Source: a virus
Length of the DNA stretch: 44,061 nucleotides
Reading direction: 5' to 3' (one strand)
Virus record (IMG/VR): IMGVR_UViG_3300020470_000035
Location: 1 to 44,061 of that record
Within the stretch, counting starts at the first letter, position 1. Each line of letters begins with the position of its first letter. Below, in pieces: positions 243 to 4,571 of the stretch. The position numbers were made by a program, and so were the translations under genes. The notes beneath the pieces were generated by a model that was not told the DNA's origin, ran no database searches, and was given only the letters and a program-made list of their open reading frames with translations.

Positions 243-380
243 TATAGGGTAAATTACTGATAAAGCGTGAGTGCTTATGCAAGTTTAGCGAGCGTACCAT
301 GAGGATCGAAGTTTGTCAACCCACGGGGCGAAATTTTTCTAGTCTAGATCCACAAAACGACACAAAATCTAGTCGAGATT

Positions 381-388
381 TATAAATA
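381..388 (+). promoter_or_regulatory. TATAAATA late-promoter match
   Basis: A second exact TATAAATA, directly downstream of palindrome unit two. It could add late transcription of the small gene at 511-654, or be a chance match in an A/T-rich stretch. Confidence 0.4.
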
Positions 389-442
389 TTCAACTAGGTC
401 ATTCGTATTATAATCTCGTCGAGAAATGCACGTCATAAGCAC

Positions 443-471
443 TTGCAAATCTCGACGAGATGTGCTATAAT
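443..471 (+). promoter_or_regulatory. sigma-70-like promoter with an operator in its spacer
   Basis: TTGCAA (443-448), a 17-nt spacer, then TATAAT (466-471). The spacer contains the full TCTCGACGAGA palindrome at 450-460, so a bound protein would block RNA polymerase. The start point would lie near 478, about 30 nt before the ATG at 511. Confidence 0.65.
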
Positions 472-510
472 CATTATACAATCAAACACAAATCTCGACG
501 AGAATCCACC

Positions 511-654
511 ATGCAACCAGAACTAGATTATGCACTAGATTCTTATCTCGACGAGACCTCATCGTCATATAGTGACACACTATATGATCTCGACGAGATG
601 TATGCACGTCATGACTCATCATATGAGGCACTTGCATACAGGCATTACGCCTAG
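511..654 (+). CDS. small acidic protein of unknown function
   Basis: This gene encodes 47 residues rich in Asp, Glu, Tyr and Ser, starting MQPELDYALDSYLDE. The frame is open upstream to 460, but a start there would overlap the -10 box of the promoter at 443-471, so the ATG at 511 is preferred. Two palindromes of the upstream array fall inside the gene and encode the repeated YLDE/DLDE peptides, so the coding sequence and the operator array are interwoven. I recognise no domain. It may be a real small early protein or only the downstream edge of the regulatory region. Confidence 0.45.
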   Translation: MQPELDYALDSYLDETSSSYSDTLYDLDEMYARHDSSYEALAYRHYA

Positions 655-3457: not shown

Positions 3458-3886
3458 ATGGCAATTACTCTCACTTCAAACTACAAAGAGATCTACGACA
3501 CAATCGTAACTGATCAAATTGACGAATGGGTTGAGGACGGGACTTATGAATTGCGTGATATGCTGGACTATCTTGATACCTACGGGCAGGATAAATTCAG
3601 TTATTTTGAAGAGTACATGACTGAACTTGATGACATATATGCGGATGATGCAAGGGAAGCACTTGACGAATATTTGGACGACGTGGGTGGTCCAGAATGT
3701 GTGCAAGGTGCTGCCGAGGCATATTGTGGTCAGTGGGACGACCCTGCAGACTTCGCAAAAGAAGAAGCAGAGTCATGCTGCTATGATATTCCACACTGGG
3801 TCGACATTGATTGGGAATCTACATGGGAAAATCTCTCATGGGATTATATGATAACAGACTCAGGTCACATCTTCCGAAACATATAA
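3458..3886 (+). CDS. acidic ArdA-like antirestriction protein candidate
   Basis: The 142-residue product has, by hand count, 39 Asp/Glu against 6 Lys/Arg, as expected for a DNA mimic. ArdA proteins mimic B-form DNA and block type I restriction enzymes. The C-terminal half carries the arrangement I associate with ArdA-like proteins: YCGQWDDPADFAKEEAESC, then HWVDIDWESTWENL and a final GHIFRNI. The N-terminal half (residues 1-75) is an acidic helical region (LDDIYADDAREALDEYLDD) less typical of the family. The gene has its own promoter and structured leader and ends in a strong terminator, as for an independently controlled early gene. The antirestriction role is inferred from sequence character. 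Confidence 0.6.
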   Translation: MAITLTSNYKEIYDTIVTDQIDEWVEDGTYELRDMLDYLDTYGQDKFSYFEEYMTELDDIYADDAREALDEYLDDVGGPECVQGAAEAYCGQWDDPADFAKEEAESCCYDIPHWVDIDWESTWENLSWDYMITDSGHIFRNI

Positions 3887-4382: not shown

Positions 4383-4571
4383 ATGAGAAACATCACGATG
4401 CGAAAAAATTTCCAAGATGAAAGAACTACCTTAGAAGTTGATACAGTATCAGGGGAGTATATAATAAGAATACCAGAATGTATAGTAAATGATCAAGGAT
4501 GGTTTGAAGATACTGTATTAGGATTTAAGGTTGATGGAGATGAAATTATTTTACAAGAAACCAATGACTAA
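4383..4571 (+). CDS. AbrB/SpoVT-fold-like small protein
   Basis: The gene encodes 62 residues from the ATG at 4383, with an alternative ATG at 4398. The core (GEYIIRIPECIVNDQGWFED, then TVLGFKVDGDEIILQE) follows the swapped-hairpin AbrB/MazE pattern: a beta strand ending IP, a short helix, W-x-x-x-T-x-L, and a terminal beta hairpin. Such proteins bind DNA as dimers and act as transition-state regulators or antitoxins. It opens a three-gene operon with an 8-nt overlap (ATGACTAA) to the next gene, so it might regulate its own operon. The assignment rests on pattern only. Confidence 0.55.
   Translation: MRNITMRKNFQDERTTLEVDTVSGEYIIRIPECIVNDQGWFEDTVLGFKVDGDEIILQETND

Follow-up and report, generated by a model that had tools for sequence, protein, structure and literature searches.

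The strong early promoter P_ant of the Salmonella phage P22 carries a symmetric operator between its -35 and -10 elements, which is bound by Arc and Mnt, small dimers that cooperate. In the middle promoters of T4, a MotA box, set at a constant distance from the -10 box, replaces the -35 element and activates transcription. Mycobacteriophage stoperators are many copies of one repressor site per genome, asymmetric and distributed genome-wide (PMC9283540, PMC6550527), and the LexA (SOS) box of cyanobacteria has the consensus AGTACWNWTGTACT (PMC3091678). Cyanomyoviruses are reviewed as having no alt, modA, modB, motA or asi, and a putative middle promoter motif was found in P-SSM4 and Syn9 and not in P-SSM2 (PMC2984593). 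The ladder of sites on an apparent early promoter described here provides a concrete and cheaply testable handle on how cyanomyoviruses exit from the early phase.

The architecture of this locus, putative operators over a phage promoter, is a variation on a known kind. It resembles P_ant in having a symmetric putative operator between the -35 and -10 elements of a strong early phage promoter and, in the model given below, in being bound by cooperating dimers. However, P22 is a temperate phage with one or few sites and a known ribbon-helix-helix repressor, whereas here a ladder of about 5-9 sites extends over about 250 bp in lytic T4-like phages, and a search of 11 records with the Pfam model RHH_1, by which divergent members could be missed, gave no match at E 0.5. 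Like the MotA box, the site in the promoter is specific to phages and keeps a constant distance from the -10 box; unlike MotA-type promoters, the array promoter keeps its -35 element, a -35-like hexamer preceding the spacer site, and cyanomyoviruses have no motA (PMC2984593). Stoperators are likewise many copies of one site in a phage genome, but they are asymmetric and scattered, while the array sites are symmetric and concentrated in one to few arrays. LexA boxes are also palindromic repressor sites in promoters, yet their sequence is unrelated and they do not occur in arrays. Full-text searches, which mostly do not cover subscription papers, returned no description of the site or the array; a match to the 11-mer in a DLP6 paper was a terminator listing and was rejected.

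The seven-site array and its promoter

The DNA analysed (the window, 44,061 bases) is an IMG/VR virus record of a P-SSM2-like T4-like cyanophage, with about 81% identity to Prochlorococcus phage P-SSM2 over 71% of its first 25 kb. A search for TCTMGWCKAGA found seven sites between positions 338 and 598, against a chance expectation of 0.04 exact matches in 44,061 bases, and none of 100 shuffles of the window reached seven. Outside this interval no further site was found in the window on either strand, even with one mismatch allowed. The sites start 30, 46, 36, 43, 53 and 42 bases apart, and the search reproduced the palindromes and spacings given in the initial annotation. The array is located in a small-gene region upstream of the baseplate wedge genes, within a mostly non-coding, AT-rich stretch of about 600 bp in an otherwise dense genome. 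The putative operators and the elements around them are as follows.

338-348, no strand: operator site 1, TCTAGTCTAGA, at -128 from the -10 box
368-378, no strand: operator site 2, TCTAGTCGAGA, at -98 from the -10 box
409-414, plus strand: second TATAAT, its last T common with site 3; weak or secondary promoter at best
414-424, no strand: operator site 3, TCTCGTCGAGA, at -52; positional ortholog in P-SSM2, P-SSM5, AG-345-F15 and AG-345-L05
443-448, plus strand: -35 hexamer TTGCAA (TTGACA in P-SSM2 and AG-345-F15)
450-460, no strand: operator site 4, TCTCGACGAGA, at -16, inside the 17-bp spacer between -35 and -10
466-471, plus strand: -10 hexamer TATAAT, with TGC just upstream as an extended -10
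493-503, no strand: operator site 5, TCTCGACGAGA, at +27, between the inferred transcription start and the ATG
511-654, plus strand: gene A, an acidic 47-aa Y/D/LDE peptide ending in ALAYRHYA; family conserved in array-bearing phages, with PSSM2_098 at the same place in P-SSM2
546-556, no strand: operator site 6, TCTCGACGAGA, at +80, encoding LDE in gene A
588-598, no strand: operator site 7, TCTCGACGAGA, at +122, encoding LDE in gene A

The TTGCAA/TATAAT promoter at 443-471, with the site at 450-460 filling its 17-nt spacer, was recovered as first annotated, and the two sites that had been placed inside the open reading frame at 511-654, coding for YLDE and DLDE, are indeed in frame at 546 and 588. 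The TATAAT at 409-414, reported earlier as abutting a site, is present and in fact overlaps that site by one T, but no -35-like hexamer lies 17 bp upstream of it. A TATAAT directly before a site is frequent across arrays; since the AT-rich flanks of the site could explain this frequency, we set it aside as evidence.

Two further blocks of the window are conserved. At 115-163, AAAAAAAGGTTTTAAATACCTTTATAAATATA is conserved in all aligned relatives and contains the late-promoter-like TATAAATA. At 279-319, just upstream of the array, a second block, TTTAGCGAGCGTACCATGAGGA...TTTGTCAA, is recognisable even in array-free phages.

Site symmetry, placement and distribution among phages

Across the family the site has the consensus (A)(A)TCTCGWCGAGA(T)(T), the flanks extending its symmetry to AATCTCGWCGAGATT, and A and T are about equally frequent at its centre. 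The equal use of A and T together with the symmetric flanks indicates a two-fold symmetric DNA site without orientation. Given this symmetry and the many copies upstream of transcription, the array is best described as a DNA operator ladder, not as RNA elements or tandem repeats. Spacings between sites across the family peak at 22-24, 31-33 and 39-43 bp, and non-coding site pairs gave a phasing score R of 0.41, compared with 0.21 for the 99% level of the null; non-coding pairs are helically phased, as would be expected of an array of repressor operators. The initial annotation had taken the irregular spacing as an argument against strict helical phasing. That irregularity is true of the window alone and not of the family, whose spacing is phased and stereotyped.

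The position of the sites relative to the promoter is conserved as well. In 58 of 68 gene A promoters a site starts 17 or 18 bp before the -10 box and follows immediately on TTGACA, TTGCAA or TTGCAT; in the window it starts 16 bp before. When 91 non-redundant gene A promoters (<85% mutual identity) were compared, 80% had a site at -18 to -16, inside the -35/-10 spacer, and further peaks appeared near -116, -82, -50, +24, +89 and +115, while a control motif had no match in the same set. A collection-wide count gave 114 stretches with a site followed by 6-7 nt and TATAAT, and only 17 when the gap was lengthened by 5 nt. New loci from this spacing scan also carry the other sites of the ladder; about a dozen and a half of these loci are single-site matches that are unrelated and have no gene A. 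The array is tied to the promoter, its spacer operator being conserved over about 90 promoters, and a symmetric site lies at a fixed position over core promoter elements, as in repressor-operator systems.

Orthologous arrays were found in P-SSM2, P-SSM5, S-SKS1, S-SRM01 and S-T4. The array lies at a homologous place in P-SSM2, P-SSM5 and two marine single-cell virus records, among which several sites align column by column while the spacers diverge. The initial annotation had asked whether the 11-mer is equally frequent elsewhere in the genome; it is not, and sites are confined to arrays in the window, in P-SSM2 (252 kb, every exact site within one array) and in other whole genomes. S-SRM01 has three arrays. 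The single array of S-T4 appears in two copies in its record (MH412654.1), at 2.5-2.8 kb and at 174.1-174.4 kb, each with gene B (described below), which may reflect terminal duplication in the assembly. S-SKS1 carries two full sites amid many CGAGAT half-sites, which replace most full palindromes over the same promoter and gene A (L009 5321-5712; 11 in 350 bp). A three-site array pattern matched at least 119 stretches of IMG/VR, compared with 1 for the reversed motif, and arrays are common in marine and freshwater phages. Among 84,980 bacterial and archaeal species genomes the same pattern had five matches, none of them in a cyanobacterial genome: four come from unrelated bacteria and are in-register tandem repeats, and the fifth is a short, mis-binned phage-like contig whose array is of the smaller type seen in the phages. 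No alternative palindrome arrays were found in phages without this array. RNA family models had no match at gathering score in six relatives, and only sub-threshold matches in the window.

Gene A overlaps the array, and its family consists of short acidic peptides. The sites within it stand in one frame and encode LDE, and 83 of 112 LDE tripeptides of the family are written CTCGACGAG. In most relatives gene A is followed by gene B (PHROG_12516), which tblastn did not find in P-SSM2 or in the window and for which an AlphaFold model was uninformative; in phages that have no gene A, it is gene B that the array precedes. Other small genes of the neighbourhood, one of them ArdA-like, are flanked by smaller arrays with 3-6 sites. 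The window itself encodes an acidic ArdA-like protein at 3458-3886, likely an antirestriction DNA mimic, to judge from similar relatives that match Pfam ArdA weakly; in other phages those relatives adjoin smaller operator arrays. At 32 loci (e.g. IMG/VR contigs L117 and L517) a gene for a GIY-YIG endonuclease, probably homing, lies within a few hundred bases of an array.

A proposed repressor switch and the competing explanations

The initial annotation suggested an undescribed control switch and a dimeric factor that binds cooperatively, and this is still the best reading. In our judgement a dimeric, most likely phage-encoded factor probably occupies the ladder in a cooperative manner and silences a strong early promoter of host type (sigma-70) in T4-like cyanophages. 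The promoter elements are near consensus, so that an activator would not be needed, and sites in the spacer and on both flanks of the start are as expected of repression. In the model that we infer, which comprises binding, cooperativity, repression, timing and the phage source of the factor, the naked promoter at 443-471 would fire at once after DNA entry through unmodified host RNA polymerase, leading to expression of gene A and, in most relatives, gene B. The dimeric factor would then accumulate, block RNA polymerase directly from the spacer site, and spread cooperatively to the flanking sites of the phased ladder, locking the promoter off. The smaller arrays would place neighbouring small genes of the region under the same factor. 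Several observations count against such a promoter switch: the searches described below gave no fitting repressor; some arrays, for instance the third of S-SRM01, lie at gene ends without a clear promoter; and in the array-free relatives Bellamy and S-SM2 gene B lies behind a similar, operator-less promoter.

More broadly, and more tentatively, a large group of lytic T4-like cyanophages could well have a dedicated repressor-operator switch, consisting of a phased ladder of about 5-9 operators over an early promoter and satellite arrays, with a DNA-binding protein of an unrecognised class as its reader. If this is true, early genes would be turned off without MotA, AsiA or modification of RNA polymerase. 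For cyanobacteria, the array promoter would in addition offer a compact, strong and repressible promoter of natural origin, and array DNA could serve as bait for fishing out the regulator.

The reader of the array could instead be a host DNA-binding protein, whether a repressor, an activator or a nucleoid protein sensed by the phage, or one titrated by the array as a decoy. Searches for a phage-encoded binder gave none, and array-bearing phages infect both Prochlorococcus and Synechococcus, which makes a conserved host factor conceivable. Nevertheless we consider this unlikely, given that the five cellular matches to the three-site pattern include no cyanobacterial array and that phages with and without arrays share the host WH7803. 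The LexA-like host site or decoy suggested at first is not supported either: identity with the LexA/SOS box was rejected because its consensus differs from that of the site (PMC3091678), and the three-site scan of cellular genomes showed no real arrays.

An iteron-like replication origin, or another nucleoprotein assembly site, whose internal promoter primes replication as in T4 origins and for which repression is secondary, appears somewhat less likely still. It would fit the AT-rich, mostly non-coding stretch of about 600 bp in a dense genome, the occurrence of several arrays within about 10 kb in one genome, and the detrended cumulative GC-skew maximum of P-SSM2 (AY939844.2, about 65.7-66.3 kb), which lies about 250 bp from the array. 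However, in S-T4 the skew extremes are about 3 kb from the array, and in S-SRM01 and S-SKS1 they do not coincide with it either; control of transcription accounts for the constant position of a site between -35 and -10, and an origin does not. The fixed frame in which some sites encode LDE in gene A raises the further idea that the sites are constrained by protein repeats or RNA structure and are not operators. This is very improbable: only two of the seven window sites are in gene A, many sites precede the transcribed region, A and T are used equally at the centre, LDE is mostly encoded by the palindrome itself, and phages without gene A keep the array.

The search for a phage-encoded binding protein

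Searches with the Pfam models RHH_1, which could miss divergent members, and HTH_3 gave no consistent candidate repressor common to array-bearing phages, and a contrast of gene content between array-bearing and array-free genomes yielded no clean basic DNA-binding protein. Gene B was rejected as the binder on account of its absence from P-SSM2 and the window (tblastn) and its presence in array-free phages, as were the genes adjoining the smaller arrays, which also have homologs in array-free phages. The gene-content contrast did bring out one protein.

4398-4571, plus strand: possible but weakly supported trans factor, a MazE/SpoVT/AbrB-fold protein (PHROG_661)

In this specific form of the repressor explanation, the binder would be a protein of the phage itself with a MazE/AbrB fold, whose gene lies a few kb downstream of the array. 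The array-bearing genomes that were examined have it, in a syntenic position immediately upstream of gp25. By predicted fold it resembles MazE, AbrB and SpoVT (Foldseek probability up to 1.0, best Z 6.5), and Pfam MazE_antitoxin matches 35 of 63 members (best E 6e-6); the swapped-hairpin fold is assigned from weak E-values, consistent top matches and a monomer model only. Among contigs anchored on gp25, 20 had array and protein, 9 the protein only, 6 neither and none the array only, the protein-only count being inflated by incomplete contigs and by L267, which has a degenerate array with gene A. Against a role in binding, the family is strongly acidic (mean of 13.3 D/E versus 3.7 K/R) and offers no basic DNA-contact surface, and sequence inspection showed no conservation of the basic residues with which MazE contacts DNA. 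Sf-CH8 and ACG-2014f contradict the prediction: both encode the protein but have not a single site, so that its presence correlates only partly with the array. We regard it as an improbable binder. PHROG_661 is syntenic upstream of gp25 in many cyanophages, and its S-SRM01 member is annotated as a DNA-binding domain-containing protein.
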